The position numbers and the translations under genes were made by a program. Shown here piece after piece: positions 11,199 through 47,338 of a stretch of 62,819 nucleotides of DNA. Source of the stretch: a virus; IMG/VR virus record IMGVR_UViG_3300042691_036907, positions 1 to 62,819 of that record; one strand, written 5' to 3'. The notes under the pieces were generated by a model. The model was not told the origin of the DNA, did not search any database, and saw only the letters and a list, made by a program, of their open reading frames with translations. The stretch's first letter is position 1. Every line of letters begins with the position of its first letter.

Positions 11199-11948
11199 TT
11201 ATTCAAATCCGTTTTCTAGCCCATCCATTTTTAAAATAGAATATATGTCTTTGTATTTTTTCATAGATGACCTTATATCTTTAGTTGATAAATTGGTATA
11301 GTTTCGCATTGTTTCTAAAACTGAATTTTTATTAAATTTAGGTCCACCATTCATAATGTCTAATGTTTTTTCCCAATTTTCTAATATATCAATTAATGCG
11401 TAACCAACCTTTATTTCATTATCATTCAACCTTTTTTTAGGTGGAAGGTTATCATTGTTATCAATTTCTACTTTTATATTATTAGTTAAATTAAATATAA
11501 ATTTATCTAATGTGAAATCTTTATCTTCTATTTCATATTGTAAATCTTCCCTACCATCTAAATATGATTGAGTTAAATCTTCATATGAATATAATTGTTT
11601 TAGAGAACCATCATCCTTTATTAGTAGCCCTAAAATATAATGTTTACAAATTGTTCCATAGTAAGAATATGCTTTTTTACCAGAATCTTTATCAAACTTA
11701 TCCGCTTTTGTTATCAAGAAGGAAAGAGTGTCTGAATGTAAATCTTCAAATGAGACACCCTTTCTATATAATTTATACCTTCTGATTATCGATTCAATCA
11801 TTTTATCAAATGGTTTTCTTAACCATTGATTGTAGATTGCATTCCTTTCTATTTCATCGTTACATTCTAAAAATCTAACTACAGCTGCTTCTTCTTCTGG
11901 GCCAAAATATAAATCATTCGTTCTTTTTCGCCCCCTTTGTTTAGCCAT
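11199..11948 (-). CDS. Late-transcription sigma factor, T4 gp55-like
   Basis: 249 residues. The segment from about residue 15 (YFGPEEEAAVVRFLECNDEI) through KPFDKMIESIIRRYKLYRKG and SFEDLHSDTLSFLITKADKF to KAYSYYGTICKHYILG is the region-2-like core typical of gp55 proteins from T4-like phages. gp55 binds host RNA polymerase core and reads the late promoter TATAAATA, coupled to the sliding clamp. Two exact TATAAATA elements occur upstream of genes in this window (2377 and 54218). It is the fourth gene after PhoH on the minus strand and is followed by structural genes. Confidence is high. Confidence 0.85.
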   Translation of the reverse strand: MAKQRGRKRTNDLYFGPEEEAAVVRFLECNDEIERNAIYNQWLRKPFDKMIESIIRRYKLYRKGVSFEDLHSDTLSFLITKADKFDKDSGKKAYSYYGTICKHYILGLLIKDDGSLKQLYSYEDLTQSYLDGREDLQYEIEDKDFTLDKFIFNLTNNIKVEIDNNDNLPPKKRLNDNEIKVGYALIDILENWEKTLDIMNGGPKFNKNSVLETMRNYTNLSTKDIRSSMKKYKDIYSILKMDGLENGFE

Positions 11949-11957
11949 AATTAAATA

Positions 11958-12743
11958 TTATTCTGTATAACTTATCTCTCTATCCTGTTCGTGATAAAAT
12001 TCAGATTTAGCTTTATTTAACCACCAATTGGCTTCAACTGGGTTCATGGATTCTCTGTAATTATGGAACAATGAGCCAGTTCTTTGGTTAACATGTTTGT
12101 AACCAAATCTAGGTATTGTCATAATTCTTGCTGATTTGTAAGACATTCTCAATAAGAATTCATAAATAAATGTTAATTTAATATTTGATTTAAAACCACC
12201 ATATGATTGGTATAATTCTTTTTTCATAACAATACCATCAATATTAAAGTTTTGATATGTTAATAATGCATCTTTATCTAGGTATCCTAATTCTTCTGAA
12301 AAACTATTTGCCCAAACTGCTTCGTTTGTAAAACCAATAAATGAACCATTTTCATCAACATCAACAATAATTGGCATGAAGATATCCACATCTGTGTGTG
12401 CTTCGATATATGTTTCAACTGATTTAAACCATATTTTAGAATACTCATCATCATATTCTAAGATACTGAACCATTCAGTATCACATTTATCAACACCGAA
12501 ATTCATTTGCGATGCGAAATCAGTATTACCATCGTTTTCAACAACGGTTACTAAATCTTTAATTGAATCGTAATCATATCCTTTTGCAAAATCAAAAGCA
12601 TCACTAGCTTTTGGTACTACAACCATAACTTTACCAGGTTTAACAACTTGGTCATGTATGCTTTTGATTGCATTTGCAAATAATGGTTTTGTATTATCAT
12701 TAATATCATGTAATGGAATAATTACTGTTACATTTTTACTCAT
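11958..12743 (-). CDS. Family-2-like glycosyltransferase (GT-A)
   Basis: 261 residues. The N-terminus VTVIIPLHDINDNTKPLF and the later NFGVDKCDTEWFSILEYDDE give the GT-A fold with a D-x-D-like EYDDE metal/nucleotide-sugar site. The middle part FNIDGIVMKKELYQSYGGFK is the acceptor-side motif of this family. It probably transfers a sugar from a nucleotide donor in the cytoplasm. It is paired with a GT-B enzyme immediately upstream (12755-13885) and separated from the main glycan block by PhoH, so these two may serve a dedicated target such as a virion protein (inference). Confidence 0.82.
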   Translation of the reverse strand: MSKNVTVIIPLHDINDNTKPLFANAIKSIHDQVVKPGKVMVVVPKASDAFDFAKGYDYDSIKDLVTVVENDGNTDFASQMNFGVDKCDTEWFSILEYDDEYSKIWFKSVETYIEAHTDVDIFMPIIVDVDENGSFIGFTNEAVWANSFSEELGYLDKDALLTYQNFNIDGIVMKKELYQSYGGFKSNIKLTFIYEFLLRMSYKSARIMTIPRFGYKHVNQRTGSLFHNYRESMNPVEANWWLNKAKSEFYHEQDREISYTE

Positions 12744-14921: not shown

Positions 14922-15815
14922 TTAGTTAAATCTTCTTTTAAAAAATATTTTTATTTTTCTAAGCCAATTAATTTTTTTACCACCTTCTTTAATATATCTA
15001 GGTTTTATTTTGATAACTTTGGTTTGGTCAACCTTTGGTTTTGGTTCATCATCTTTTTGTATATTATCAAATATGTTAATAAAATATGTTGTTAATCTAT
15101 GTCTAACAACTTCACTTTTATCAAACTTAACAATACCAACACCTTCTTCTGGATTTTTAAGTACATTATTAACCAAAGGTTCTAATGCACTTAACCTTTT
15201 ATCTTTTAAATCGATTTGTCCAGAATCACCAAGTACAATAACTTTAGTATTTTCTGAGAACCTAGTTAAGAATGTTTTACCATTATCTTTTGATATATTT
15301 TGAAATTCATCTATAATAATAATTGAATTGGTAAATGAGCGACCTCTAATGGCACCAAACACTTCCATTTTAATAATACCAAATTCAATAAGTAGATTAG
15401 TTAGTTCTTCACCTATTAGTTTATGAAAAGCATCAAGAAATGACATCATATGGAATTTCAATTTATCCATCTCATCACCTGGAAGTGTACCTATTTCTTC
15501 ATTCTTTAATTGTGTTATTGATTTAACCAATTTAATCTCTTTATATAAGGTTGGGTTATTTTTTAATAATAATAGCGCTTCATATATACTGATTAATGTT
15601 TTACCAGTACCAGCTGGTCCAGAACAAATTGTAACATCATTTTCTTTTATGATGGTCATTAACTTTTTCTGAGTTTCATTTTTACACTTTAAAGATATTC
15701 TAATATTATTAATAAGTTCTTCCTTTGTTAACGCTTTTTTAACTGTACTAACTTTAGTTTTAGTCCCCGTTGTTGTGGTTGTTGCGGTTGATGGTGTTTT
15801 TCTGGTTCTAGTCAT
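14922..15815 (-). CDS. PhoH-like ATPase
   Basis: 297 residues. A low-complexity Thr/Lys-rich N-terminus (residues 1-30) precedes the P-loop domain with Walker A GPAGTGKT (66-73), Walker B IIIIDEFQN (165-173) and sensor-like VIVLGDSGQID (near 192-202). This order is that of PhoH/RhlE-type ATPases found in many large phages, often discussed as phosphate-stress or RNA-metabolism proteins; their real role in phages is not settled. The C-terminus is very basic (WLRKIKIFFKRRF), suggesting nucleic-acid contact. It overlaps no neighbour and lies 3 bases after the upstream stop. Confidence 0.9.
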   Translation of the reverse strand: MTRTRKTPSTATTTTTGTKTKVSTVKKALTKEELINNIRISLKCKNETQKKLMTIIKENDVTICSGPAGTGKTLISIYEALLLLKNNPTLYKEIKLVKSITQLKNEEIGTLPGDEMDKLKFHMMSFLDAFHKLIGEELTNLLIEFGIIKMEVFGAIRGRSFTNSIIIIDEFQNISKDNGKTFLTRFSENTKVIVLGDSGQIDLKDKRLSALEPLVNNVLKNPEEGVGIVKFDKSEVVRHRLTTYFINIFDNIQKDDEPKPKVDQTKVIKIKPRYIKEGGKKINWLRKIKIFFKRRFN

Positions 15816-16856: not shown

Positions 16857-16970
16857 TTATCGTCTACCACCGAATCCAGTATTTCTTCTTCTTATTTTTG
16901 CTAATAATGCATCATCACCAATTTTACTTATTGGGTTATTTGGTTTATGTAATTTTTCAGCATTTGGTAA
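16857..16970 (-). repeat. DNA repeat encoding the shared glycosyltransferase tail, copy 1
   Basis: About 105 bases match 22034-22147 with roughly nine mismatches by eye, much closer than the rest of the two genes. This points to recent duplication or gene conversion of the tail segment. Confidence 0.8.
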
Positions 16971-18818
16971 TATGACTTTTTTATTGTTTATAACAATTGT
17001 TTTTGGTGGTTCTGTTTTTTTAACTTCAATAGCATTACCATTTGATGTGCCGTCTGGTCTTTTTTTTTTAATACTATCTGATAGTTTAACTTGGTTAGTT
17101 ATTATTTTATTATTTAAATTTTTGTAAATTTCAGAATAATTAAGATTAACCTTGTCGGTATATTTATCATATGAAGTTTTTGGCATCAAGTCGATTAATA
17201 TATTACTTTTATATGGTAATGAAATATCATTTATAGGTCCATCTTTATCTATCACTAAATTGTTTAATGGGTTTTCTGATAAAAAATTACCTTTCATCAA
17301 ACCCATATCGGTTATATTTTGACTTGTCCTTATTGTGACTAAATTAACACCGTCTTTAATATTGCTTACAATACTTTTAATTATTGGTTTGTTTAATTTT
17401 TTTATATTTTCATTTGAAATACCATCTAAACTTTTATTTGCTTGCGCATTACCCCACGGTTTCCAATTTAACTCATTTAATAAACGTTTACTAAAATATC
17501 TACCACCACCAACAGGTTCACCAACTCTACTATTTGTGTATCCACCCCAATACCAGTATCCACTACCATCTATACATTTAAAGTCTAATATACCCATATA
17601 ATCAACACCAGATTTGTTTTTTTCAATATACTGATATATCACATTTTCACATATTAAATCATCTGAACCAATTAATATTACAAAATCTGGATTATATTTT
17701 TTAGCTTCTGTAAATAATGCGTTATGTTTTTGTGTTAATGGGAAATTTGTGTGGTTAATATATTTAAAATCATTTTTAGTCGCTATTTGCATATTAGTAT
17801 TATCATCTGACCCACACGCTATTAATTCTATATCACAAACATCTGATATACCTTTTTTTAATTTTTTATAATAATCTAAAACAATTTCATTTAAATTATG
17901 TCTAAGATATAATGTGGTTAAAATACATAATTTAGGTTTGTCTTGTTTAAACATATCTTTGTTTTCATTTATTTCTAATTTATTTATTATGTTTGGTAAT
18001 TCTGGTGTAATATCTTCAATTTCCAATCTGTTATTAGCATTTAATAAATCTTCCTTTGTGTTTATACAATTCCAATCACCCTTTATGCTGAGTATAAATT
18101 CATCATTGTTTAATGTTACTTTTTTTAAGTTTGTTTTATCAAATAAATATTCACCATGTTCATCTAAATGTATCGGTCTATATTCGTTAAATATTTTCCA
18201 GTTTACCTCATCTAAAAATTTTTTAGTATATATCTTTCCACCACCTAATAGTATACCAACATTGTCTTTATACCCAAATTTATGTAATTTATTATCATTT
18301 GAACAAACTAACCATTTTCTTGAGCCGATTAAATCATATCCAGTTTTTAATAATTCTATTGATTTTTCAATGTAGTTTAAAGATAATAAATCATCAGAAC
18401 CCAACACCATCAAATATTTTAAATTATCTAATGTTTCTGCAAATTTAACACTATCATAAAACTTTTTACCCAATGGGTAGTTAAGTGTAACATTAACAAA
18501 AACATTGTCGTATTCATTTTCTAATGTTTTAGCAAAATTATAATCTGGTATATTTGAACAGGTTAATATTATTGCTGGTTTTATTGATTGTTTATTTAAC
18601 AATTCAACATTTAATTTAACAATATTTTTTCTACCAAAAAACGGTATTACACAAGCAATTTCATATTTGTTATTTTTATTACAATCACTATAATAGGGTA
18701 GGTTGATAACTGATTGATAGTTATCGTAACTGTGTTTTAATTTTTCAAAATCTAACCTATAAATTTCTTTGGTTAGATTTTTATTTGATTCCTCAAAAAA
18801 ACTATTAATATTTATCAT
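16857..18818 (-). CDS. Double GT-A glycosyltransferase with shared C-terminal tail
   Basis: 653 residues with two GT-A domains in tandem. Domain 1 is about residues 50-270 (IACVIPFFGRKNIVKLNVEL; YLMVLGSDDLL) and domain 2 about 295-520 (LCILTTLYLRHNLNEIVLDY; FVILIGSDDLICENVI), each with an SDD donor-site motif. The last ~65 residues are a separate tail that ends KPNNPISKIGDDALLAKIRR, then RNTGFGGRR. The glycosyltransferase at 22034 ends with nearly the same tail. Two domains could add two different sugars or build an alternating polymer. The tail is not part of known GT-A enzymes and may be a docking or virion-association tag (inference). It is the last gene of the main glycan block. Confidence 0.82.
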   Translation of the reverse strand: MININSFFEESNKNLTKEIYRLDFEKLKHSYDNYQSVINLPYYSDCNKNNKYEIACVIPFFGRKNIVKLNVELLNKQSIKPAIILTCSNIPDYNFAKTLENEYDNVFVNVTLNYPLGKKFYDSVKFAETLDNLKYLMVLGSDDLLSLNYIEKSIELLKTGYDLIGSRKWLVCSNDNKLHKFGYKDNVGILLGGGKIYTKKFLDEVNWKIFNEYRPIHLDEHGEYLFDKTNLKKVTLNNDEFILSIKGDWNCINTKEDLLNANNRLEIEDITPELPNIINKLEINENKDMFKQDKPKLCILTTLYLRHNLNEIVLDYYKKLKKGISDVCDIELIACGSDDNTNMQIATKNDFKYINHTNFPLTQKHNALFTEAKKYNPDFVILIGSDDLICENVIYQYIEKNKSGVDYMGILDFKCIDGSGYWYWGGYTNSRVGEPVGGGRYFSKRLLNELNWKPWGNAQANKSLDGISNENIKKLNKPIIKSIVSNIKDGVNLVTIRTSQNITDMGLMKGNFLSENPLNNLVIDKDGPINDISLPYKSNILIDLMPKTSYDKYTDKVNLNYSEIYKNLNNKIITNQVKLSDSIKKKRPDGTSNGNAIEVKKTEPPKTIVINNKKVILPNAEKLHKPNNPISKIGDDALLAKIRRRNTGFGGRR

Positions 18819-18821
18819 AAT

Positions 18822-20564
18822 TTATAATTTAACAATACCAGAATCAATCCAATTTATTTTCCAAAAATATAACCCCAACATTGCGCTTCTTAAATATTGG
18901 TCATCTCTGCTATTATCATTTATATTTATTTTAGCTATACCACTTTTATTTAAATTATCAACAGCTATAGTTTTTAAATTATGTATTTGATTTAAATAGC
19001 TAGATTTTAAACTAAACCCTAATTTTTCACGATGCCACATTGATTCTTCGTAACCGTAGTCTTTTAATAATTTTTTTAAATATTTTTTCCTACCAAAAAA
19101 ATCATCAACATGTCTTGTTTCATCTAAACTTAAGGCTGATTCTATAAGTCTGTGGTCCAGAAATGGACATCTAACTTCTATTGAATTAGCCATGCTTGAA
19201 AAATCTAATGTTGGGTTTAAATCACCTTTAATATATGTCATTAATTCAAACCACCTGTATTTTGATGACTCTGGAAAATTTTCATTTAATTTTGGTACAC
19301 AATCATTTATTAATTTAATTAAATCGGTTTCGTTTTTTTTATCCACATTTAAAACATCAAATGATTTTGGGTTTCTAAATATATGATATATTTGACCAGA
19401 TTCATTTAAACTTGGTTTATGTATATTCAAATTATTATTTTTTAATAATTTTTTAAATATATCTTGGTTTATTTTTGGGGTTGGGGTTCTGTTATACCCA
19501 AAAAACAATTCATCAGCACCATTTGCACTAATTGCTACTTTATAATTATGTGCTGTGTGTTTTGATGTTATGTATGGTATAAAACCAGCCATTGTTGGTT
19601 CACCACAAAAATATGTGTAATCTTTTAAAATTTCAGATATGTCAAAATCAGAAGGCTCTATAACACTTAAACTAATTTTTAATTTATCCGATACTAATTT
19701 AGCATATTGAAATTCATCTGATGATAAATGTATTGCATTTACATCTTTTAAAACTGACGCAACTAAACTAGAATCTATACCCCCACTTAAATAAATACCT
19801 ATCGGTACATCTGAAACCTTAACCTTACTTATCGAATCAATTATTAAATTCTCAATACTATCATCAGTTACATTTGAATTATAATTGGGTTCCCAATATT
19901 TTTTATTATATATAATACCATTATTATATTTTAAAACATTTGAGGCATCTAATCTTTTTATATCACTAAATAGTGTATTTTCACTAAAAATACCACCCAT
20001 AATTAGATATTCCCACACACCATTATAATTTAATTTCCATTCATGTTCTGACAATGCTTTAACTATCGATGCTGGATTTGATGCAAAATATAGTGAATCA
20101 TCCTTTATAAAATAATATAAAGGTTTTTGACCTATCCTATCCCTAATTAAATATACATCCCCATTTTCAGAATCAAAAAGTGATATAGCAAACATACCAT
20201 TTATATTTTCAAGTGTAAAATCAATACCATATTTATAAATTAAATGTAATATAATTTCAGTATCGGAATGTCCCAAAAACATATCATCATTTAAGTATGA
20301 ATCTTTTAGTTCATTTGCGTTATATATTTCACCATTAAAAACAATAGTTAAATTATTATAAGTCATTGGTTGATTACCATTTATTGATAAATCAATTATT
20401 GATAACCTGTTGTGAAATAGAAAAACATTACCATAAGTGTAAGTTTCAGAATAATCTGGACCTCTCCTACTTTGATGATTTTTCATAATATCAATTTGTT
20501 GTTTAGTTTTAGTAATATCAACAACCGTATTTGAATTATATATTATACCACCTATTCCACACAT
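18822..20564 (-). CDS. Asparagine synthetase-like glutamine amidotransferase
   Basis: 580 residues. It begins MCGIGG, with the catalytic Cys2 of class II glutaminases, and has RLSIIDLSINGNQPM (53-67) and FNGEIYN (76-82). The synthetase half has the PP-loop SGGIDSS (260-266) and, toward the end, PFLDHRLIESALSL. The full two-domain layout of AsnB is present with all landmark motifs. In surface-polysaccharide clusters such enzymes amidate sugar acids, using glutamine and ATP, rather than making free asparagine. That role is plausible here because the gene sits between an LpxD-like acyltransferase and a glycosyltransferase, 3 and 2 bases from their ends. Confidence 0.88.
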   Translation of the reverse strand: MCGIGGIIYNSNTVVDITKTKQQIDIMKNHQSRRGPDYSETYTYGNVFLFHNRLSIIDLSINGNQPMTYNNLTIVFNGEIYNANELKDSYLNDDMFLGHSDTEIILHLIYKYGIDFTLENINGMFAISLFDSENGDVYLIRDRIGQKPLYYFIKDDSLYFASNPASIVKALSEHEWKLNYNGVWEYLIMGGIFSENTLFSDIKRLDASNVLKYNNGIIYNKKYWEPNYNSNVTDDSIENLIIDSISKVKVSDVPIGIYLSGGIDSSLVASVLKDVNAIHLSSDEFQYAKLVSDKLKISLSVIEPSDFDISEILKDYTYFCGEPTMAGFIPYITSKHTAHNYKVAISANGADELFFGYNRTPTPKINQDIFKKLLKNNNLNIHKPSLNESGQIYHIFRNPKSFDVLNVDKKNETDLIKLINDCVPKLNENFPESSKYRWFELMTYIKGDLNPTLDFSSMANSIEVRCPFLDHRLIESALSLDETRHVDDFFGRKKYLKKLLKDYGYEESMWHREKLGFSLKSSYLNQIHNLKTIAVDNLNKSGIAKININDNSRDDQYLRSAMLGLYFWKINWIDSGIVKL

Positions 20565-20566
20565 TT

Positions 20567-21388
20567 TTATATATCTTTAAGTTTTTTGTTTGGTGAACCA
20601 ATATGTAGTTCGTTATCATTTATTTCCTTTATAACTAATGTTGCAATACCTGTCATTGAGTTATTACCTATTTTTGCCCCATTAATTATTGATGTTGATG
20701 GTGCAACCCACACATTCTCACCAATAATAACACTTCCAGCCACCATTGAATTTGCAATTATTAATGAATTTTTACCAATTTTAACACCATGTGCGATATG
20801 TACTAAATTATCTATCTTGCAATTTTCGCCAACTAAAGTGCTACCAATAACACCTCTATCTATACATGTATTGTTACCAATTTCAACATTATCACTAATT
20901 ATAACATTTCCAATATGTTTTATTAATTCATATTCACCATTTTCATTTTTTTCATAACCAAAACCAACACCACCTATTGTATTATTACACCCTATTGTTA
21001 CATTATCACCAATAATCGTATTATCAAATATAACGGTATTATGACCTATTTTAACATTTTTACCCATTTTAACATTTTCACCAATAACAACATTGTTACC
21101 TAAGATTGGTTCGTAATTTTTTACTTCTGGGTATAATAAATCCAATAATTTTTTAAATTCAACTCTTGGTGATTTTACAATTATGTAATTATTTTTGGGA
21201 TTTGGGTTATCTGGTATATTTTCAGAAACTATTATTGTTTTATTTTTAACATCACCTAATCTATTTAAGTTTTTATCATTACACCAAGTAATGGTATTAT
21301 CAACGTTATCAAATAGTTGACTAACACCGCTTATATTTAAATCGTTATTAAATATTTTTTCAGATATTTTATTAATATGGTTAAACAT
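20567..21388 (-). CDS. LpxD-like N-acyltransferase (hexapeptide repeat)
   Basis: 273 residues. The left-handed beta-helix hexapeptides begin near residue 98 (VVIGENVKMGKNVKIGHNT) and continue for about 150 residues. The signatures GGVGFGY (140-145), IDRGVIGSTLVG and KIDNLVHIAHGVKIG, with the catalytic-type H200, are those of UDP-3-O-acylglucosamine N-acyltransferase. It is about 70 residues shorter than typical LpxD, and the N-terminal uridine-binding part is divergent. It may acylate a different amino sugar, for example one exposed by the PIG-L deacetylase encoded immediately upstream, rather than a lipid A precursor (inference). Confidence 0.8.
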   Translation of the reverse strand: MFNHINKISEKIFNNDLNISGVSQLFDNVDNTITWCNDKNLNRLGDVKNKTIIVSENIPDNPNPKNNYIIVKSPRVEFKKLLDLLYPEVKNYEPILGNNVVIGENVKMGKNVKIGHNTVIFDNTIIGDNVTIGCNNTIGGVGFGYEKNENGEYELIKHIGNVIISDNVEIGNNTCIDRGVIGSTLVGENCKIDNLVHIAHGVKIGKNSLIIANSMVAGSVIIGENVWVAPSTSIINGAKIGNNSMTGIATLVIKEINDNELHIGSPNKKLKDI

Positions 21389-21389
21389 G

Positions 21390-22025
21390 TTATATTATCA
21401 TTCTAATTACCTCAAACGTTTCACAATATTCTGAATTTATTTGCATACCCCTAACCATAGTTAATGCTTTTATATATTCATCAGTAACATACCCTCTAAA
21501 TTTTTGTGATTCGTATTTATTAATTGCGTTAATTTTTTTTATAATATTTTCCTCAGTTAGTTTTACAAACAACTGATTATTTAGTTGGAAGTTATTCCAA
21601 ACCAATTCATAGCCAAGTATGTTTGTTTTTTTAAATGCCCTAATACCTTCCTCGTTTATTGTTTTATGGTCTTGATGTATGTCACTACACATTGGTAATA
21701 AAACCAAGTCTGGTTTTATTTCATTGTTTAACTTAACCATAGTCTCTAAAATTTCTTGTCTGTATTTTGGAAAAAATCTAACTGGGAAGTTAAAAATTTT
21801 TAAATTATTTTTAGGTATACCCAATTCATTTGTTGCTTCAGCAACTTCTTTTTTTAATATGTCTTTTGGATACCCTTCTGGAACGGATTCTTCACACGTT
21901 GAAAATGCAGCATAAATTACATTCTTACCCATATCAACTAATTTGGATATTAACCCACCACAGCCAATTTCACCATCGTCAGTGTGTGGTGCTAAAATTA
22001 AAATATTATTAATATTTTCAAACAT
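21390..22025 (-). CDS. PIG-L/LmbE-family deacetylase
   Basis: 211 residues. The N-terminus ILILAPHTDDGEIGCGG (residues 8-24) is the zinc-binding AHxDD motif of the family, with a second HQDH in the middle (MCSDIHQDHKTINEEG). Family members remove N-acetyl groups from GlcNAc-type sugars. It is encoded directly before the LpxD-like acyltransferase (1 base between them), suggesting deacetylation followed by re-acylation of one sugar. It is soluble, with no signal peptide, so it should act on cytoplasmic nucleotide sugars or glycolipid precursors. Confidence 0.87.
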   Translation of the reverse strand: MFENINNILILAPHTDDGEIGCGGLISKLVDMGKNVIYAAFSTCEESVPEGYPKDILKKEVAEATNELGIPKNNLKIFNFPVRFFPKYRQEILETMVKLNNEIKPDLVLLPMCSDIHQDHKTINEEGIRAFKKTNILGYELVWNNFQLNNQLFVKLTEENIIKKINAINKYESQKFRGYVTDEYIKALTMVRGMQINSEYCETFEVIRMII

Positions 22026-22033
22026 GATATTTT

Positions 22034-22147
22034 TTATATTCTACCACCGAATCCAGCATTTCTTCTTCTTATTTTTGCAAGTAATGCATCATCACCAATT
22101 TTACCTATTGGATTATTTGGTTTATATAATTTTTCAGAATTCGGTAT
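22034..22147 (-). repeat. DNA repeat encoding the shared glycosyltransferase tail, copy 2
   Basis: Counterpart of 16857-16970; see that entry. The repeated DNA is at the 3' end of the gene. Confidence 0.8.
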
Positions 22148-22966
22148 AATTGCCCTATTTGGGTTTATAATAATTGTTTTTGGTTTTTCTGGGTTATTTG
22201 GTTTAGGTTCATTTTTAATATTACCATTTGATGTGCCGCCTGAGCTTTTTTTTTTTAATGAAACTGGATTGGAATTACCTTTACTTAATAACTCTATTGG
22301 TTTGTCCTTAAAATCATTATAAAAATTATAAACGACTATTGGTTGTTTTTGTCTAAATCTAGGGTGTAATTTAGAGTCGTCATTACCGTTGTGTTGTGTT
22401 AATGAATAATTTAAATTTTTTATAGTGTATCCACCAGGATTTCGTGTAAACGATTGTGTTACTGTTCTCCAAATACCTGTTGATTTACCCTCAGAAGTTT
22501 TTAACGTTGCTGGTATTAAATTAATAATTGTTTTTAATCCACCTTTTGACGATACAAATGCACCATCAATCCAACCAGGTATATTCCACATTGTATCATT
22601 TAACGATAAAACATTAATTATTAAATTTTGGGAGACAAAATTATCTAATATTTTTGTAAAATCATCACACAGTATTAAATCATCGGCCAATAAAATAAAA
22701 TAATCACCATCATTATTTATAGCTTCAGACAATAGTGATTTAATAGTTAAATTAAATTTAAATTTACCATTATTTGTACTATTTGTTATTGTTTTTACGT
22801 TTGAGTATTTATTCCCCAGTTCTTCGTATCTATTATCAGTTGAGCCATCATTTAAAACTATAACCAAATAATCATCAATATCTTTTATTTGATTTATTAG
22901 GTTTGTCAATTTTTCATATCTATTATATGAGGGTATTAAGAAGGTATAGTTATATTTGGTTATCAT
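22034..22966 (-). CDS. GT-A glycosyltransferase with shared C-terminal tail
   Basis: 310 residues. The catalytic domain spans residues 1-230: YNYTFLIPSYNRYEKLTNLI, VIVLNDGSTDNRYEEL and YFILLADDLILCDDF with the ADD metal site. From about residue 245 a linker (SLKKKSSGGTSNGN) leads to the tail KPNNPIGKIGDDALLAKIRR, then RNAGFGGRI, nearly identical to the end of the 16857 protein. Only these two of the many glycosyltransferases here carry it. The gene overlaps the start of the upstream epimerase stop by 4 bases (ATGA). Confidence 0.84.
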   Translation of the reverse strand: MITKYNYTFLIPSYNRYEKLTNLINQIKDIDDYLVIVLNDGSTDNRYEELGNKYSNVKTITNSTNNGKFKFNLTIKSLLSEAINNDGDYFILLADDLILCDDFTKILDNFVSQNLIINVLSLNDTMWNIPGWIDGAFVSSKGGLKTIINLIPATLKTSEGKSTGIWRTVTQSFTRNPGGYTIKNLNYSLTQHNGNDDSKLHPRFRQKQPIVVYNFYNDFKDKPIELLSKGNSNPVSLKKKSSGGTSNGNIKNEPKPNNPEKPKTIIINPNRAIIPNSEKLYKPNNPIGKIGDDALLAKIRRRNAGFGGRI

Positions 22967-23958
22967 AATTCAATTAAAACATTACATATTTTTTCCGATG
23001 ATTTGCCATCACCAAATGGTGATTCCACTTCAACATTATAATTATAAATATGCTCACTAAATAGATTAATTAATTTAATTGGTGATTTAACCATGAATGT
23101 TGTTAACCCGATTGATTCTGGTCTTTCAGTTGTCTCTCTACAAACTAAACATTTTTTATTTAAGAATGAGCATTCTTCTTGTAACCCACCACTATCTGTT
23201 ATTACTAATTTACATTTAATCAATAGTTTTAGTAATTCAGTATGTTTTAATGGTTCACAAACCTCAATATTTGCTAATAAATTTTTGTATTTAATAACAT
23301 TTGGATTAGGGTGTATAGGTAATATAAATTTAATTTTTGGGTATTGTACTGCTAACTTATTTAACTCATTAAACCACAATTCTATTTTATCGTGGTTTTC
23401 ACGTCTATGTAATGTTATTAACACAATATCTTCATATGTTACTTCATCTTTATATTCTAATAAATTGTCCAACCCAGTATTACCAACAACATATGATTTA
23501 CCCATAACCTTTTCGTTTTTAAGATTATTTAAATTATAAGTTGTTGGGCACAAATTAATATCGGACATTCTCGATATTATTTGTCTATTCATTTCTTCTG
23601 GATATGGGTTTGAATAATCATATGTTCGTAATCCAGCTTCTAGGTGTATTATTTTAATTTGTCTATGAAATGCAGCTAATGCTAAACCTAGTGCGGTTGA
23701 GGTGTCTCCTTGAACTAAAACATAATTAATACCATTAAACCATTCATCTGGTAAATTTGTACAATTATTAATTATATTATCGAGCCTATTTGTTGAATTA
23801 TCTAACATTGTTAAATTAAAGTCCGCTAAATTTTCAACTAAGTCTTTATGCTGACCAGTAAATAAAGTTTTAAATTTAATACCATGTTTTTTCATTTCTG
23901 AAATTAATGGTTTAATTTTAATCCATTCTGGTCTTGTTCCGTAACTTATTAAAATCAT
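22963..23958 (-). CDS. wecB: UDP-N-acetylglucosamine 2-epimerase
   Basis: 331 residues. GTRPEWIKIKPLI (7-19), VQGDTSTALG, IHLEAGLRTYDYSNPYPEEM with NRQI, TLHRRENHDK and the C-terminal ITDSGGLQEECSFL are the full set of family motifs, including the D, two E and H residues of the active site. The enzyme converts UDP-GlcNAc to UDP-ManNAc. It is a little shorter than bacterial WecB (about 375), but no motif is missing. It feeds activated sugar to the neighbouring transferases. It directly abuts the FkbM gene. Confidence 0.92.
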   Translation of the reverse strand: MILISYGTRPEWIKIKPLISEMKKHGIKFKTLFTGQHKDLVENLADFNLTMLDNSTNRLDNIINNCTNLPDEWFNGINYVLVQGDTSTALGLALAAFHRQIKIIHLEAGLRTYDYSNPYPEEMNRQIISRMSDINLCPTTYNLNNLKNEKVMGKSYVVGNTGLDNLLEYKDEVTYEDIVLITLHRRENHDKIELWFNELNKLAVQYPKIKFILPIHPNPNVIKYKNLLANIEVCEPLKHTELLKLLIKCKLVITDSGGLQEECSFLNKKCLVCRETTERPESIGLTTFMVKSPIKLINLFSEHIYNYNVEVESPFGDGKSSEKICNVLIEL

Positions 23959-24558
23959 TTATTTTAATTTATATAAAACTTCTTTATTAACACCATTAGT
24001 GTAATTATCATTACCATTTATTAAATCGTGTGTGTTTTTAATCCAATTAGTTAAAATGTTGAATTTTTCAACACCCATTTGACTGTGTAACTCAACACCA
24101 ATATATCTTAATTTAGATAAATCTTTATTCAAAAGTAAAGAATATTCTGATGTCTCACAATCAACTTTAAAATAATCAATAATTTTATCATCAGCTATTT
24201 TATATATTTCTTCTAATGATATTGATTTGATTTTATTTACAACGGTATTTGTCCAATCATTATTTAATAATTCACTTTTAACACCAACAGACCCTAAATC
24301 GGTATTAGAATGATGAACTAACTCAAGTTCAATATTAGATTCTGACCATACTGCTCTATTTAATGGTTTTATATTTGGTTTATCTTTAAATAAATTAACA
24401 ATATTATTATATAAATTTATTTGCGGTTCTATGATATATATTTCACCAAAATGTGTTGCGTATTTATTAGTGAAGTCACCAAAATTACCACCAATATCAA
24501 AACAAAGACCATCTTTAGTTTCTGATGGTACTAAATAGTTACCTAAGTTAACTCTCAT
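23959..24558 (-). CDS. FkbM-family methyltransferase, short
   Basis: 199 residues. LCFDIGGNFGDFTNKYATHF is the SAM-binding motif I and IIEPQINLYNNIV motif II; YFKVDCETSEYSLLLNKDLS is the FkbM signature. It is probably a sugar or lipid-linked O-methyltransferase of the glycan pathway. It overlaps the GDP-mannose epimerase gene by 11 bases and abuts wecB, so all three are co-translated. It is shorter than the FkbM protein at 4507 and only distantly similar, so the two are not a recent duplication. Confidence 0.84.
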   Translation of the reverse strand: MRVNLGNYLVPSETKDGLCFDIGGNFGDFTNKYATHFGEIYIIEPQINLYNNIVNLFKDKPNIKPLNRAVWSESNIELELVHHSNTDLGSVGVKSELLNNDWTNTVVNKIKSISLEEIYKIADDKIIDYFKVDCETSEYSLLLNKDLSKLRYIGVELHSQMGVEKFNILTNWIKNTHDLINGNDNYTNGVNKEVLYKLK

Positions 24559-25588
24559 AATTTTTATTTTTTTTACTAATCCAATTATATGTTTTTTCTA
24601 AACCATATTTTAATGGTTCGGATACAACCCAACCAATTTTTTCTTTATATAATTTATTGTCTGAGTTTCTACCTTTTACCCCAGTTGGACATTTATGGTT
24701 GTATTTTTCATAAAATTCATCACCATATATATTTTTTATTTTTATATCTTTATCAGATAATTTTATAACCATTTCAGCTAATTGATTTATTGTTACCATT
24801 TCTTCTGAGCCAATGTTAACAGGACCAATAAACTCATTATTCATTAATCTTATTACAGCCTCAACACATTCGTCAACATAAAGAAATGACCTTGTTTGTA
24901 ATCCATCACCCCATACTTCAATTTCACCACCATCTTCAGTTTCAGAAATCTTTCTACACATGGCTGCTGGTGCTTTTTCTTTACCACCTTTCCATGTACC
25001 TTGGGGTCCAAATATATTGTGGAATCTGGCGATTCTAACATTTAACCCATAATTTCTAAAAAATGATAAATATAATCTTTCACTAAATAATTTTTCCCAA
25101 CCATATTCTGAATCTGGGTTTGATGGATAAGCTGAAGATTCTTCACAGTTTGGATTATTTGGGTCTAATTGATTGTGTTCTGGGTACATACAAGCTGATG
25201 ATGAATAAAATAATTTTTTAACACTTTTTTCAACAGCTTCTTTTGCCACATTTAAATTAATCATGGCTGAATTATGCATAACATCCGCATCATGTTCACC
25301 AGTAAAAATATACCCAGCACCACCCATATCTGCTGCTAATTGGTATACTTCATCAAATGAATTATCTTTATCATCTAAAGATGTTTGTATTGGTGAAAAT
25401 ATAACTCTAGACACCAACATTGGGTCTCTTAAATCCCCAACTATAAATTCATGACATATTTCGGATTCATCAAAATATTCATGTTTTTTTAAATCGACAA
25501 TTCTAACCCAATGACCTTCTGATTTTAATCTTTTGGCTAAGTGCCCACCTATAAATCCACCACCACCTAATATTAATATTTTTTTCAT
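24548..25588 (-). CDS. GDP-mannose 3,5-epimerase
   Basis: 346 residues. The Rossmann motif GGGGFIGGHLAKRL (8-21), QLAADMGGAGYIF (83-95), YSSSACMYPE (128-137), YGWEK (162-166), RFHNIFGPQGTWKGG (188-202) and GDGLQTRSFLYVDE form the pattern of plant and bacterial GDP-D-mannose 3,5-epimerase, including the Cys of SSACMYPE and the YxxxK pair. It makes GDP-L-galactose/GDP-L-gulose from GDP-mannose. The similarity to the plant-type enzyme is much stronger than to generic extended SDR proteins. It shares an 11-base overlap with the FkbM gene. Confidence 0.86.
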   Translation of the reverse strand: MKKILILGGGGFIGGHLAKRLKSEGHWVRIVDLKKHEYFDESEICHEFIVGDLRDPMLVSRVIFSPIQTSLDDKDNSFDEVYQLAADMGGAGYIFTGEHDADVMHNSAMINLNVAKEAVEKSVKKLFYSSSACMYPEHNQLDPNNPNCEESSAYPSNPDSEYGWEKLFSERLYLSFFRNYGLNVRIARFHNIFGPQGTWKGGKEKAPAAMCRKISETEDGGEIEVWGDGLQTRSFLYVDECVEAVIRLMNNEFIGPVNIGSEEMVTINQLAEMVIKLSDKDIKIKNIYGDEFYEKYNHKCPTGVKGRNSDNKLYKEKIGWVVSEPLKYGLEKTYNWISKKNKNYES

Positions 25589-25594
25589 CTTAAT

Positions 25595-26332
25595 CTATAT
25601 TAATCGTTTGTTTATAAAATATGTAAAATCCCAATCATACGCTGGTACTAAAAGTCTATCTGGGTTTGATGTATCATTAATTAGGTATAGATTTTTATGG
25701 GGTATATCATATTTTATCATATCTATAAAGCATTGTGCGGAGCTTTGTATTGCAAATACATTTTTGGCTTTTAAAATAATTGGATACCAATCCAATAAAG
25801 TATAACCATTTATATTATCAATGTGTATGTTCTTATGGTTTTTAAACTCATCTGGTATGATACCAATTCTACCATTTTCACCAATTAAATGTGTTATATT
25901 ATAATCACTGTTTATATCTAAATTTAATAAGTTAATTAATTGATTTTCTTTTTCTAAATCCCTATTCCATTTAAATTTAAATTTGTCATCATATTTTAAC
26001 CCAAATTTTAATTTGTCTTCAACAACATAGTATTTCAATTCCTCTATAAATAATTTACCACCTTTAGTTGTGCATAAATAATCATATTCTGGTGATGTTT
26101 GACAATTCACAAAAATGTAATCATTTTGTTTTGAAAATTCAAAGCTTTTTGAACTATCTAATAATCCTATTTCAAATGATTTTAAACCATCCACATATTT
26201 AACCAATTCTTTAGTATTATTACAATGTGGTAAACAAACTTCATAGTTTAAGTCTATTAATTTTTTAGCAATCGGTAACATGTTAATGTAGTCACCATAT
26301 TTTCCTGGTTGGTGTATTAATACCCTTTTCAT
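25595..26332 (-). CDS. GT9-like glycosyltransferase (heptosyltransferase fold)
   Basis: 245 residues. The start MKRVLIHQPGKYGDYINMLP has the glycine-rich K-x-GD-I-x-LP entry motif of heptosyltransferase-type (GT9) GT-B enzymes, and the C-terminal FAIQSSAQCFIDMIKYDIPH resembles their donor-site strand with the conserved S-x-x-x-H/C-x-A region. It is about 100 residues shorter than normal GT9 enzymes, so the N-terminal domain is reduced. It likely transfers a sugar to the growing glycan. It overlaps the upstream methyltransferase gene by 4 bases. Confidence 0.7.
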   Translation of the reverse strand: MKRVLIHQPGKYGDYINMLPIAKKLIDLNYEVCLPHCNNTKELVKYVDGLKSFEIGLLDSSKSFEFSKQNDYIFVNCQTSPEYDYLCTTKGGKLFIEELKYYVVEDKLKFGLKYDDKFKFKWNRDLEKENQLINLLNLDINSDYNITHLIGENGRIGIIPDEFKNHKNIHIDNINGYTLLDWYPIILKAKNVFAIQSSAQCFIDMIKYDIPHKNLYLINDTSNPDRLLVPAYDWDFTYFINKRLI

Positions 26333-26820
26333 TTTTCAACCATAACCATGAAACTATTATACAAATCAACATTTGAGACAAAAACTTTACTATAACCTTT
26401 ATCTTTAAAATAGTCATTAATAAATTCTGGTTTAAAAATATTAACATGTTTTCTGTTATTCCACGGTCTCCAATAGCCCTGTGAATAATCTGGTAAATAT
26501 AAAAATATTACACCACCTTTTTTTAATTTAGTATCCCAATAATCTAAAGTTGCAACCCAGTCTGGTATATGTTCTAAACAATGTGAACTAAATATATAAT
26601 CAACCAAACCTTCTGGTAGGTTATTTGCTTCATAATCATCATCAAATGATAAATCTATCGGTGTAGAGCCAGGCAATGCCCACTCTTTGCGCATACAACC
26701 AATGTCATATCCAACACCTTTACAAACTTCCATAGCAAATGGTAAACAGAATCTGGATGCAAACCCGTTAGTTTGAAACTTTGGGTAATCAACCCCTCTA
26801 TAGTTAACAGTATCAATCAT
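26329..26820 (-). CDS. SAM-dependent methyltransferase (class I)
   Basis: 163 residues. GVGYDIGCMRKEW gives motif I, followed by the acidic DLSFDDDYE and the typical VDYIFSSHCLEHIPDW of the Methyltransf_11 group, then KLKKGGVIFLYLPDY. It is small, with no extra domain. Enzymes like this in glycan clusters cap or decorate sugars or act in chain-length control. The start ATG is preceded by AAAATATG. It is followed with a 4-base overlap by the GT9-like gene. Confidence 0.83.
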   Translation of the reverse strand: MIDTVNYRGVDYPKFQTNGFASRFCLPFAMEVCKGVGYDIGCMRKEWALPGSTPIDLSFDDDYEANNLPEGLVDYIFSSHCLEHIPDWVATLDYWDTKLKKGGVIFLYLPDYSQGYWRPWNNRKHVNIFKPEFINDYFKDKGYSKVFVSNVDLYNSFMVMVEK

Positions 26821-26832
26821 ATTTTAAAGTAT

Positions 26833-27582
26833 TTAAATTTTATTTATTCTGGTAAAAATTTGACACCCATTTAAAGTTTCTTTATTTATAGTTTGTTCAC
26901 CACTTAATTTAGTTAATTCTCCTAAATCAACATCATAAACAACTAAAAAATTATAATCAACTTTATTTATTATTTTATCAACATAGATATCCCTAGTTTT
27001 TTTATCACATTCACACCAAGCATAATTACTAATTACCAATGTGTTTTTACCCACACTAAATTTATCATTATATGTGTAGGTTTTTGGGGTTATATCAAAT
27101 TCGTTTAAATACTTTTTTTGTAAATTTAAAGCTTCTGGTAAATCAAACAATGTTATTGCCTTAAAATTATATATAACATTTAACACTCTAACAAGTCCAC
27201 CATAACCAGCACCTATTTCAACTAAATTTACATTATTTATATCACCGAAAGTTTTTTGTATGTCTCCCGCAAATTTTATATATCTTAGTGTTGTTGGGTT
27301 TATTTCACCAAATTCATCATAATTAAATTTAATTGGGTTACCAATTAAATCATTTTTTTTAAATTCATCTAGATGTACTAAAAGATGTTTATAATTTTTA
27401 ATAATATAATCAGCATATATTTTACCATCATTATAGTTTAGATGTTCTAAAATTGGTGTATACCCAGATACACCATTTCTAAATGTTTTGAATTTATTAT
27501 CATCTGATAATATCTCTAAAATTGTATTTACGTAATTTGTGGCAATATTATTATTTGCCCTCCACCCTAGAAAATCACTCAT
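26833..27582 (-). CDS. Putative sugar O-methyltransferase
   Basis: 249 residues. The pattern NYKHLLVHLDEFKKNDLIGN with LRYIKFAGDI, NLVEIGAGYGGLVRVLNVIY (motif I) and ITLFDLPEALNLQKKYLNEF fits the family described as putative sugar O-methyltransferases in polysaccharide clusters. FLVVYDVDLGEL closes the fold. It acts in the cytoplasm, without a signal peptide. It is one of four methyltransferases in this window, so the final glycan is probably heavily methylated. Confidence 0.82.
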   Translation of the reverse strand: MSDFLGWRANNNIATNYVNTILEILSDDNKFKTFRNGVSGYTPILEHLNYNDGKIYADYIIKNYKHLLVHLDEFKKNDLIGNPIKFNYDEFGEINPTTLRYIKFAGDIQKTFGDINNVNLVEIGAGYGGLVRVLNVIYNFKAITLFDLPEALNLQKKYLNEFDITPKTYTYNDKFSVGKNTLVISNYAWCECDKKTRDIYVDKIINKVDYNFLVVYDVDLGELTKLSGEQTINKETLNGCQIFTRINKI

Positions 27583-27587
27583 ATTAT

Positions 27588-28283
27588 TTAAAATATACCC
27601 CTTTTATTTACATCAATATCATGTTTTATCAACATCGGCTCAAGTTCATTTTTATACTCACGATAATTCCATTTACCTTTAATTACTGCTGTTGCAACAT
27701 ATGGGTACAATTTAGTATCGTAATGAGCACCCCCAATTTTTCTTTCACCGTTATAATAATACAAACCTTTTAGGTTTAAGTAAATAATAACTTCTCGGTA
27801 TTTAGGTATTTCTAACCATTTTTCTTCCTTAACTTCACTCATTAATTTTATATAATCGGAAGTTTTCCATATGGTTGGTTGCATGGCAAATACTGTTGGG
27901 TTATCTGACTCTATTTCGAATAAATTATCGTATATTCTATTATTATTTAATATGCCAGATTTTATTAATCTAATAAATGAATATTCACTATTTTTTAAGT
28001 AATTAGAATATTCGTTTATTTTATTTAAATCCACCTTATCATATAAGATAAAATCCTCCTGTAAATAAATAAATTGGTCAACATTAAATTGATTTAAAGC
28101 ATTAATCCAAACCATATAGTACGGTTCATTATCATTATATATGTAATTTCCAACTATACCATAACTTGATGCATCAAAATCTGATATAACATAAAGTGGT
28201 AACCCACTTTTATTTTTTCTTTCTTCTATAAAAACATTGAACACATCAATGCAGTTTTTATTTGTATATACTACCTCAACCAT
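27588..28283 (-). CDS. Glycosyltransferase-like protein, 231 aa
   Basis: 231 residues. The motifs LPLYVISDF, YIYNDNEPYYMVWINALNQF and QFIYLQEDFILYDKVDLNKI have the spacing of GT-A-type enzymes, with QED in the place of DxD. The C-terminal AMQPTIWKTSDYIKLM suits an acceptor loop. It is not a well-known family to me, so the function is inferred from fold-like features and from the neighbours, which are all glycan enzymes. It lies 5 bases from the downstream methyltransferase gene. Confidence 0.65.
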   Translation of the reverse strand: MVEVVYTNKNCIDVFNVFIEERKNKSGLPLYVISDFDASSYGIVGNYIYNDNEPYYMVWINALNQFNVDQFIYLQEDFILYDKVDLNKINEYSNYLKNSEYSFIRLIKSGILNNNRIYDNLFEIESDNPTVFAMQPTIWKTSDYIKLMSEVKEEKWLEIPKYREVIIYLNLKGLYYYNGERKIGGAHYDTKLYPYVATAVIKGKWNYREYKNELEPMLIKHDIDVNKRGIF

Positions 28284-28284
28284 A

Positions 28285-29013
28285 TTACCAAGTACATATT
28301 TTATTTATTGTTGGTGCCCCAATTAAATAACCTCTATTATTACCAACTAACCAAGTATTTAATGTTGACCCGATATCCATATAGGTGTTATTTTTATTTT
28401 TTTCCCACATCCTATATGCTAACATATTACCAAGTGGTCCAGCACAAAACAAAAACAATTTATTATCATATTCTTTATTTGGTAATGAATCTAGTAAATT
28501 GAAGTTATCTCGCCAAGCTGTACCTGTAACTTTTATATGTTCTTCAACTTCAAATGGTAAATTATTTATATTTGCATTTTCATTTGCAACCATAATAATA
28601 TCATGGTTTTTGAATTCTGGTATAAAATTTTCTTTGAAGAAATTATAATTACCATTGACAAATATATTTGCCCAAGTTAGATTATTACCGTTTACAGAAA
28701 CATTATATCGCATCCATTTTGCATCATCATTACCAACACAACATGGACAAGATATGCCAATGTAATATCCTGGTTCATTATACTTATATGATTTAATTAA
28801 TTCATCCCTATGTTTTTGGTGGATATTTGGGTCGTATGTCCAATTATCACAATTAGTTATTTTTTTATCAATTAAAATCGCATATTCACCGTCAGCATAC
28901 TTTGAAAAGGAAAACTTTTCTTTGTTTTTTAAAGCGTTAAATAATATCTTTATATCCTCTTTAAAATTTTTATTTTCTACACCAAATTCCATAATTATTT
29001 TATTGTCTTCCAA
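28285..29013 (-). CDS. GT-D-type glycosyltransferase (DUF1792-like)
   Basis: 242 residues. KFSFSKYADGEYAILI near residue 33 matches the 'FSRYGDGE' motif, whose D-x-E binds the donor in GT-D-fold enzymes. YYIGISCPCC, DIIMVANENANINN and the closing YMDIGSTLNTWLVGNN match the rest of that fold. These enzymes extend O-linked glycans on bacterial adhesins and polysaccharides. The gene overlaps the upstream family-2 glycosyltransferase by 19 bases. The start ATG at 29013 is supported by the overlap and by the preceding AAAACAAT-rich leader. Confidence 0.75.
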   Translation of the reverse strand: MEDNKIIMEFGVENKNFKEDIKILFNALKNKEKFSFSKYADGEYAILIDKKITNCDNWTYDPNIHQKHRDELIKSYKYNEPGYYIGISCPCCVGNDDAKWMRYNVSVNGNNLTWANIFVNGNYNFFKENFIPEFKNHDIIMVANENANINNLPFEVEEHIKVTGTAWRDNFNLLDSLPNKEYDNKLFLFCAGPLGNMLAYRMWEKNKNNTYMDIGSTLNTWLVGNNRGYLIGAPTINKICTW

Positions 29014-29738
29014 CCCCGTTTTTTTAATTCAACCACAATGTCATTTCGGATATTCAAATGATTTTTAACAACTAATGAATGTGCATTAGAATCCATACCC
29101 CAGTCTACATTATTAGTCATAGCTTTTTCTCTTTGGTTACTCCAAAGTTGTTTATCGTTTTCTGGGTGTGGTGGAACATAGGTTGGTATCCCATTTTTTT
29201 GTGCCATATATGAAAAAAACATATCCTCACCATTTTCCCATGATGGCGGTTCTTCAATCCACATAAATTTAGCATATTTTTGTTTAAAAAACCAAGCATG
29301 ACCAACTAAGTCAACATATGCGATATCATTAATGTGATACCCATTCCAACCAACTTTTGAATTTGGTATATATGTTTTGCCATTAGTAATAACCCCACTA
29401 CCACCTAATATACCATCTATTTTTTTTATGTTTTCTAAACAATTTTCAAACCATCTAGGTCCTGGAATAATATCATCATCAAATATTGCAATATATTCAG
29501 TTTGACACAATAATGGTATTGTAAATCTACCCCAAAATTTAGTATTGTGATTACAATTATATACCTTTATCTTGTCATCATTTGGTTTTGGTTGGTCAAA
29601 ATCTTCACCAGCTGAATTATACCAAATGTGTATATTTTCACTAGGTATACTTATTGTTTGGTTTTGAATCGCTTCAATTTGTTTTTCAAGAGTATAACCT
29701 CTCTTGTAAACATTTAATATAACACTAATGTTACTCAT
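28995..29738 (-). CDS. Family-2-like glycosyltransferase
   Basis: 247 residues. ISVILNVYKRGYTLEKQIEA (N-terminal strand of the GT-A fold), then TEYIAIFDDDIIPGPRWFEN with the FDDD donor site and ENGEDMFFSYMAQKNG as the ED base motif. This is a complete family-2 domain with nothing added. It probably adds one residue to the glycan. It follows 2 bases after the two-domain glycosyltransferase gene and overlaps the next by 19 bases. Confidence 0.85.
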   Translation of the reverse strand: MSNISVILNVYKRGYTLEKQIEAIQNQTISIPSENIHIWYNSAGEDFDQPKPNDDKIKVYNCNHNTKFWGRFTIPLLCQTEYIAIFDDDIIPGPRWFENCLENIKKIDGILGGSGVITNGKTYIPNSKVGWNGYHINDIAYVDLVGHAWFFKQKYAKFMWIEEPPSWENGEDMFFSYMAQKNGIPTYVPPHPENDKQLWSNQREKAMTNNVDWGMDSNAHSLVVKNHLNIRNDIVVELKKRGWKTIK

Positions 29739-29740
29739 AA

Positions 29741-31390
29741 TTACTTATTATAACTTTCAATATAAACACTTTTGATTTTATCAATGATATTATCAAAATC
29801 AAAAATACTTAAATCTTCTGGAACCTCATGATGTGACACTCCAGTTATTTCACCAGTTTTATCAACATCATAAATTATTGCTGGTTTACCACATAAAAAC
29901 CCTTCAATTGTTGTTCTACCCAACATAATACCAGCGGTAACATCGCACTTGTAATAAAACTCCTCTATCTTATCAGTTGGTTCAAAATATTTAACATGTG
30001 GTTCATTATTACCTAGATTTGAAGCATACCCCATAGTGTCTTTACCAACTAACCACAATTCTTTATTTTCAGTTCTACACTTTTCAACCAAATCCATAAT
30101 TGGTTTTTCTCTAAGGTAATCCATTGTGCCAACAAATAACACAACTGGTTTATCGGTACCACTTGGTAAAGAATTAGGTTTAAATCTAGATTTGTCAAAT
30201 GGGTTATATACAACTTCAACCATGTCTTCTGATATTCCAAAATTATTAACAACATAATCCTTAATACTAGGTCTAATTGCTATATATTTTTTAATTTTAT
30301 CATCAACAATTGGATTCTCCAAATCAATAACTTCAGACCTAACAATATTAACAAAATTAGATTCTGGATATAATTGTAATAATCTTTCTGTTATTGGTTT
30401 ATGGTTAGCATGAATAATATCAAATGTTTGTTGATTTACCCTATATAACATATTTGGTTGTGATGGTTGTGGTCCATTTTGTGCATTTATTAACCATTTG
30501 CCATCACCCAATTTATAATGTGGTGGTTCATTTAAACTATACGTTTTAATACCATGTTTATTACATATCTTTTTAAATTCATCACCAATATTTAATGAAA
30601 CAACTGAAACATCACAATTTCTACTTGCTAAGCCTTTAGCGGTTTCTAATGTTGATATTTCAGAGCCAGTTAAACCTTCAAAATTTAAACAACCCATTAA
30701 TATCCTTAATCTTCTATTTTGGAAAGTTTCATTTAATCTAACTGGTAATTCATCTTTGAATTTATCAGCAAATTGTACCCTATTAGATTCCCATTGTTCA
30801 TTGGTCATACCTATTGACATGTGATTTATTCTAATTTCAGTGGTTACACCTACTTTAACACCTTCTAAATGATTCCTAAAAGAAAAATCAACATCATAGA
30901 AATGGAAACCTTCTACAGCTTCATCAAAGTTTTGTTTAATTCTATTTTTATTAACAGCAAAAAATACACCATCAACAATAATAGTTTCTTCTAATCGTTT
31001 ATCTTGGTCTGGACTATATTCAGATAGCCACGTCTTACCTTCGTGAGTATGTGCAACTTTACCATACATACTTTTTCTTTCATCCCACCATCTACCTGTA
31101 TTTGATAGGTACTTCGTTCCAGCGACACCTATAATCCCATATTCTGGATTATTCTCAAACATTCTAACAATTCTATTTGCTATCTGCTTTGTTTCAACAA
31201 TAATATCGTCATGAGCAAACACAACGATATCATTTTTAGTTTCAGCTAATGCTTTATTATAGAATTTAGTTAAACTCTCACCCTTATTGATATATTCAAT
31301 TATCTCAACCTTAGGGTTACCACACGCTTTTAATAAGTGGTCAGTGTGTTTTTTATTTTCTTCTCTAGTACAATATACAATACTTATCAT
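29741..31390 (-). CDS. Two-domain glycosyltransferase (GT-A plus GT-B)
   Basis: 549 residues. Residues 1-225 form a GT-A domain (MISIVYCTREENKKHTDHLL; NDIVVFAHDDIIVETK with HDD; EGFHFYDVDFSFRNHLEG). Residues 230-540 form a GT4-like GT-B domain (LRILMGCLNFEGLTGSEIST; PVVLFVGTMDYLREKPIMDL; GRTTIEGFLCGKPAIIYDVD, with the E-x7-E region). Such fusions carry out two sequential transfers. It is the first glycan gene after the IMPDH-like gene, 3 bases away, and probably defines the 5' end of the glycan block. Confidence 0.86.
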   Translation of the reverse strand: MISIVYCTREENKKHTDHLLKACGNPKVEIIEYINKGESLTKFYNKALAETKNDIVVFAHDDIIVETKQIANRIVRMFENNPEYGIIGVAGTKYLSNTGRWWDERKSMYGKVAHTHEGKTWLSEYSPDQDKRLEETIIVDGVFFAVNKNRIKQNFDEAVEGFHFYDVDFSFRNHLEGVKVGVTTEIRINHMSIGMTNEQWESNRVQFADKFKDELPVRLNETFQNRRLRILMGCLNFEGLTGSEISTLETAKGLASRNCDVSVVSLNIGDEFKKICNKHGIKTYSLNEPPHYKLGDGKWLINAQNGPQPSQPNMLYRVNQQTFDIIHANHKPITERLLQLYPESNFVNIVRSEVIDLENPIVDDKIKKYIAIRPSIKDYVVNNFGISEDMVEVVYNPFDKSRFKPNSLPSGTDKPVVLFVGTMDYLREKPIMDLVEKCRTENKELWLVGKDTMGYASNLGNNEPHVKYFEPTDKIEEFYYKCDVTAGIMLGRTTIEGFLCGKPAIIYDVDKTGEITGVSHHEVPEDLSIFDFDNIIDKIKSVYIESYNK

Positions 31391-47323: not shown

Positions 47324-47338
47324 AAAATATTTATAATT

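Follow-up and report, generated by a model that had tools for sequence, protein, structure and literature searches.

Two genes in the sugar-gene region of a phage genome fragment encode a glycosyltransferase (GT) and a probable GT that end in nearly the same C-terminal tail. Does this likeness reflect a function of the tail, such as the targeting of both enzymes, or the way in which the tail DNA came to lie in two genes? The window (the whole 62.8-kb stretch of DNA that was analyzed; 29.8% GC) is a fragment of the genome of an uncultured T4-like phage. The major capsid protein that it encodes is of the T4 type, as judged from a match to phrog_138 (E=2.8e-51), and has ~30% identity to the capsid proteins of cultured T4-like phages. 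The nearest relative record with the region concerned, G001, encodes a capsid protein that is 82% identical to that of the window. The features discussed are listed in Table 1.

Table 1. Positions, in the window, of the tailed genes, the tail copies and the surrounding sugar island.
Feature	Position	Strand	Evidence
653-aa protein that ends in the common tail (last ~71 aa); probably has two GT-A-like domains in tandem	16857..18818	-	ORF; protein comparison
310-aa GT2-type glycosyltransferase (GT-A) with shared C-terminal tail (last ~74 aa)	22034..22966	-	Pfam Glycos_transf_2, E=1.2e-7
Tail copy 1 (coding DNA and stop), IKKKRPDGTSNGN...KIGDDALLAKIRRRNTGFGGRR	16857..17072	-	repeats 22034-22258 in direct orientation; spacing 5177-5186
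Tail copy 2 (coding DNA and stop), LKKKSSGGTSNGN...KIGDDALLAKIRRRNAGFGGRI	22034..22258	-	direct repeat of copy 1
Cassette bracketed by the tail repeats: body of the 653-aa protein and three genes	17073..22033	-	family matches of genes
AsnB-like amidotransferase	18822-20564	-	family match
LpxD-like hexapeptide transferase	20567-21388	-	family match
PIG-L-type deacetylase	21390-22025	-	family match
Hypervariable sugar-gene island between two conserved flanking genes	16857..29738	-	gene content varies among relatives
Conserved 3' flank gene of the island, 329 aa	15819..16808	-	homologs in 23/50 related records
Conserved 5' flank gene of the island, 549-aa glycosyltransferase with Glyco_tranf_2_5 and GT4/GT1 domains	29741..31390	-	profile matches; synteny of relatives

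Two enzymes with a common tail

Both enzymes end in KIGDDALLAKIRRRN(T/A)GFGGR, as noted in the initial annotation. When the whole proteins are compared by BLASTP, the tail is the sole strong match (50/74 identical, E=4e-26), and the bodies align at best at 32% identity over 88 aa (E=0.002). The common segment is 70-74 residues long, somewhat more than the ~65 first estimated, and is 68% identical over ~70 residues. A six-frame search of the window gave no third copy.

Both proteins had also been described as GT-A enzymes. This holds for the 310-aa protein, which scores 32.2 bits against PF00535 (curated cut-off 23.3) and is matched by a chondroitin synthase profile (E=2.6e-6). The 653-aa protein had no match in Pfam, and its match to TIGR04440 is sub-threshold (20.4 bits vs. 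a cut-off of 70, E=3.4e-4). Its two halves resemble each other (29%, E=3e-9), it resembles a GT of the relative G003 at 26%, and a GT-A-like order of strands and helices is seen in a poor predicted model. From the sub-threshold match, the likeness of the halves and the model, we consider that it probably consists of two tandem GT-A-like domains. The AlphaFold models are poor (pLDDT 41 and 36), and too weak to support a search by fold.

At the DNA level, the last 35 codons of the two tails are 91.4% identical, with identical third positions in 33/35; the ~90% identity originally reported applies to these ~35 codons only, as identity over the 70 aligned tail codons is 82%. An A10 tract marks the start of the similarity and the stop codon its exact end, and the DNA downstream of the two tails is unrelated. 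The same codon is used for 28 of the 30 identical residues in the last 35 codons, compared to 17.9 expected from the codon usage of the phage (p=2.7e-5). Over 70 codons, dN=0.205 and dS=0.214 (dN/dS ~0.96); over the last 36 codons, dN is 0.081 and dS is 0.163 (dN/dS 0.50). A ratio near 1 indicates almost no constraint at the protein level, and thus the likeness is explained by recent copying and not by strong selection. The dS between a window enzyme and its G001 ortholog (0.83-0.91) is about four times that between the copies (0.21), which places the copying after the window and G001 lineages separated. These DNA comparisons show recent copying of the tail DNA between the two gene ends: both enzymes have similar tails because one gene end received a piece of ~220 bases from the other. 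Selection or gene conversion had been offered initially as causes. The codon identity and the near-neutral dN/dS bear out copying, and selection is not needed.

The sugar island and the tail in related phages

A block of sugar genes, with both tailed genes at its 3' end, encodes a WecB-like epimerase, NDP-sugar epimerase/dehydratase, methyltransferases and GTs in addition to the cassette enzymes (PIG-L deacetylase, LpxD-like transferase and AsnB). The gene sets between the two flank genes differ among relatives. In distant relatives the flank genes are adjacent, or have one small gene between them. We found no homologs of the window AsnB and PIG-L genes among the relatives fetched, and none of the 3' flank gene in INPHARED. 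Distant homologs of the 3' flank protein (L218:16431-17411 and L223:16156-17142) have a zinc-finger-like C-terminal CxxC...CxxC pair, which the window protein lacks. The adjoining gene (14922-15815, minus strand) encodes a PhoH-like protein with a Lys/Arg-rich, hydrophobic C-terminal segment, KINWLRKIKIFFKRRFN. The PhoH ends in several relatives differ but look similar (e.g., KLIRRINIFLKRKFNI and ISLLKLLFNKIFGR), and these segments are suggestive of membrane or nucleic-acid binding.

The fragment also holds capsid and fibre genes alongside the sugar island. Three fibre-like proteins (39277-41646, 43508-45886 and 58863-62045, plus strand) have phrog_25468-type repeats in common. Four consecutive proteins (starting at 45888, 46574, 47605 and 48384; 45888-49115, plus strand) have similar C-terminal regions, and few homologs in relatives.

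The tail is present in G001. The G001 GT (L206:10076-11785) is a 569-aa protein with two domains, the second half of which is the ortholog of the 310-aa enzyme. Its alignment with the protein encoded at 22034-22966 takes in both body and tail (42.6%, E=7e-74). By itself, its tail also matches that of the 653-aa protein (E=0.007), although the two proteins are otherwise unrelated. None of 2000 composition-preserving shuffles (0/2000) scores as high as the match between the G001 and window tails. Two blocks are conserved in G001, an opening block KKKSSxGTSxGN (0/5000 shuffles; KKKxxxGTSxGN when written across the three tails) and a closing block (7/5000); the middle of the tail is not conserved. 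Synonymous positions of the opening block are conserved as well (10/10 codons, p=9e-4), which may reflect DNA exchange. Searched for as a separate DNA element in the DNA compared here, this block has exact matches only at the three known places.

We did not find the tail in ~99 other related records, many of which are fragments. Searches of IMG/VR and INPHARED, of Pfam and PHROGs at E 10, and of the PDB gave no convincing relative. On bacterial enzymes in genome contigs none was found, in an insensitive scan with a sole, chance match inside an Algoriphagus protein. The scans need short exact peptides or strong similarity, and thus distant tails could escape them. The initial annotation had named, as grounds against its reading, absence of the tail from close relatives or its presence as a common ending of unrelated bacterial GT-A enzymes with no phage link. 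On these points the outcome is mixed: the tail occurs, diverged, in the closest relative, was not detected in the others, and was not detected on bacterial enzymes in the insensitive scan. Apparent hits in G013 and G037 were rejected as chance matches within unrelated ORFs. In the same island slot, the GT of G003 (L207:14830-15840) has a long C-terminal tail that is extremely Lys/Arg-rich (net +21 in 72 aa). We rejected this Lys-rich tail as a homolog, as an equal or higher score was reached by 521/2000 shuffles.

The G001 island ends with the tailed GT gene, and the conserved flank gene follows immediately. In the DNA downstream of the G001 tail, which includes the intergenic sequence and the initial codons of that flank gene, a 49-base block matches the sequence downstream of the gene at 16857-18818; there is no such match to the sequence downstream of the gene at 22034-22966. 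Thus, the window looks like the G001 order with a 5.18-kb block added between direct repeats made by the tails (the repeats D1, D3 and D4, at the spacing given in Table 1). The simplest reading of these sequences is that the two tails are direct repeats, 5.18 kb apart, that bracket a cassette in a hypervariable island. The ancestral arrangement rests on a single outgroup, because the homologous tail is known in only one other genome. Given its extra N-terminal GT domain and otherwise different island, G001 does not simply represent the window without its cassette. A probable homing endonuclease gene (11916-12683, within L206:11786-12760) is inserted in G001 at the very start of the 15819-type gene, and ~20 bases of the start of that gene are repeated either side of the insertion.

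Possible origin and roles of the tail

The explanation that we favor, and hold as a whole with moderate confidence, joins these observations as follows. The tail would be an old C-terminal extension of one GT lineage in this clade of T4-like phages, in the form of a disorder-like, Lys/Pro/Asn-rich linker that starts with KKKxxxGTSxGN and ends in a short basic segment. In the window lineage, the ~220-bp stretch that encodes it would have been copied recently onto a second, essentially unrelated GT body. The cassette (deacetylase, LpxD-like transferase, AsnB and second GT body) now lies at the 3' end of the island between copies spaced by 5.18 kb. Judging from the one outgroup, it may have entered, and could possibly exit, by homologous recombination through the tail sequence, which would leave both reading frames intact. 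More tentatively, both enzymes may retain the tail as a flexible tether that holds them to one partner, which might be the membrane, the acceptor or another enzyme of the island. A simpler alternative to cassette movement is that the tail was copied alone, by gene conversion or short duplication; this would leave the same repeat.

The tether part of the favored explanation draws on the composition of the tail. The window tail is Lys/Arg/Pro/Asn-rich and strongly disorder-like, with a short basic end. We ranked 831 phage proteins of >150 aa from 13 records by how few order-promoting residues they have in the last 72 aa: the three homologous tails come 5th, 6th and 9th, and the non-homologous basic tail of the G003 GT comes 2nd. 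A disorder-like, basic-ended GT precedes the flank gene in three clade members, and thus a tether fits; the islands of other relatives have no such tailed GT. A disorder-like linker with a conserved terminal motif is found on more than one cargo, as for a docking tag, although one genome holds both cargoes and the second copy arose recently. The linker and its conserved ends make a tether or docking role plausible.

The tail could instead be a dispensable, functionless disordered end that was spread by recombination and is tolerated on both enzymes. The dN/dS of ~1 between the window copies, the lack of conservation of the tail middle with G001, and the fact that most related islands are without a tailed GT all agree with this possibility. 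However, the opening and closing blocks are kept in G001, and the tail has a dN/dS against G001 (0.56) like that of the enzyme body (0.55). The latter implies some constraint on the tail and counts against a mere passenger, which we consider possible but somewhat unlikely.

The common partner might be the inner membrane, with the basic end of the tail forming a short amphipathic helix that holds both enzymes at a lipid-linked acceptor. The island content (WecB-like epimerase, PIG-L deacetylase and LpxD-like transferase) is typical of cell-surface glycan genes, and the G001 end, GDLFMGKAMKKKLRFGKK, is basic (net +8) with hydrophobic residues. A short helix is predicted at 292-303 in a low-confidence model (confidence there ~40). 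There is also a precedent in TagA, a GT that is tethered to the membrane by its C-terminal appendage (PMC6493773). However, the window tails contain few hydrophobic residues, and their muH of 0.42 is equaled or exceeded by 74-75% of phage C-termini. We regard this form of tether as unlikely.

More doubtful still is a reading in which the tail is a phage-specific tag transferable by recombination, serving both as a DNA joint for new GT bodies and as a protein tag to a common partner. If true, any acquired enzyme would be put to work at once, since joint and tag would be one segment.

It had been suggested at the outset that the tail docks the enzymes on the virion or a scaffold, which they would glycosylate. 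A common tail with conserved ends behind a flexible linker, on a fragment that carries capsid and fibre genes, is in keeping with the idea, but a search for a related segment on structural proteins, in the window and in ~2.1 Mb of related loci, found none. The sugar islands of T4-like phages are moreover usually read as serving host-surface modification in the island passages of PMC7029224, and we judge virion docking very improbable. An actin-binding role, with the DALLxKIRR segment imitating a WH2 helix, can be set aside: a profile of the two tails matches the N-WASP WH2 repeats in the PDB (E=0.028), but this match is not significant and covers 23 residues only, Pfam WH2 is unmatched even at E 10, there is no LKKV-type second half, and the motif is lost in the G001 ortholog (GDLFMGKAMKKK).

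A tail that tethers the enzymes would amount to a targeting tag that can be transferred among glycosylation enzymes. If the tail has no such role, the locus is a caution that near-identical tails can come from recent copying instead of function. In either case it offers an example, at the DNA level, of how blocks of genes may be added to or lost from a hypervariable phage sugar island via a translated C-terminal segment common to unrelated enzymes.

Comparison with known systems

Phage tail-fibre genes undergo modular exchange via short homologies, with a conserved coding stretch as the joint for unrelated bodies. Here the putative joint is part of enzyme genes instead, and is translated as their C-terminal tail.

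Like the window tail, the TagA appendage extends a soluble-type GT of surface-glycan synthesis at the C terminus, and a short helix is predicted in it (PMC6493773). It differs in that it contributes to the active site and is conserved throughout its family (PMC6493773), whereas the window tail is disorder-like, has few hydrophobic residues and is found in two phages only. We see no sequence relation between them.

The island itself is of a known kind. Passages of PMC7029224 describe hypervariable islands for sugar modification and host recognition in T4-like phages (pelagimyophages and cyanomyophages) that change by addition of gene cassettes. As in the window, a variable block of GT and sugar-modifying genes lies between conserved genes of a T4-type genome. 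The island described there is between VrlC and gp14, whereas that of the window is between a conserved GT and the gene adjoining PhoH. Bracketing repeats and common C-terminal tails are features of the window that those passages do not mention. On our reading of the sequences, the hypervariable sugar island of the window is a variant in which the repeats either side of the cassette consist of coding DNA for an enzyme tail.
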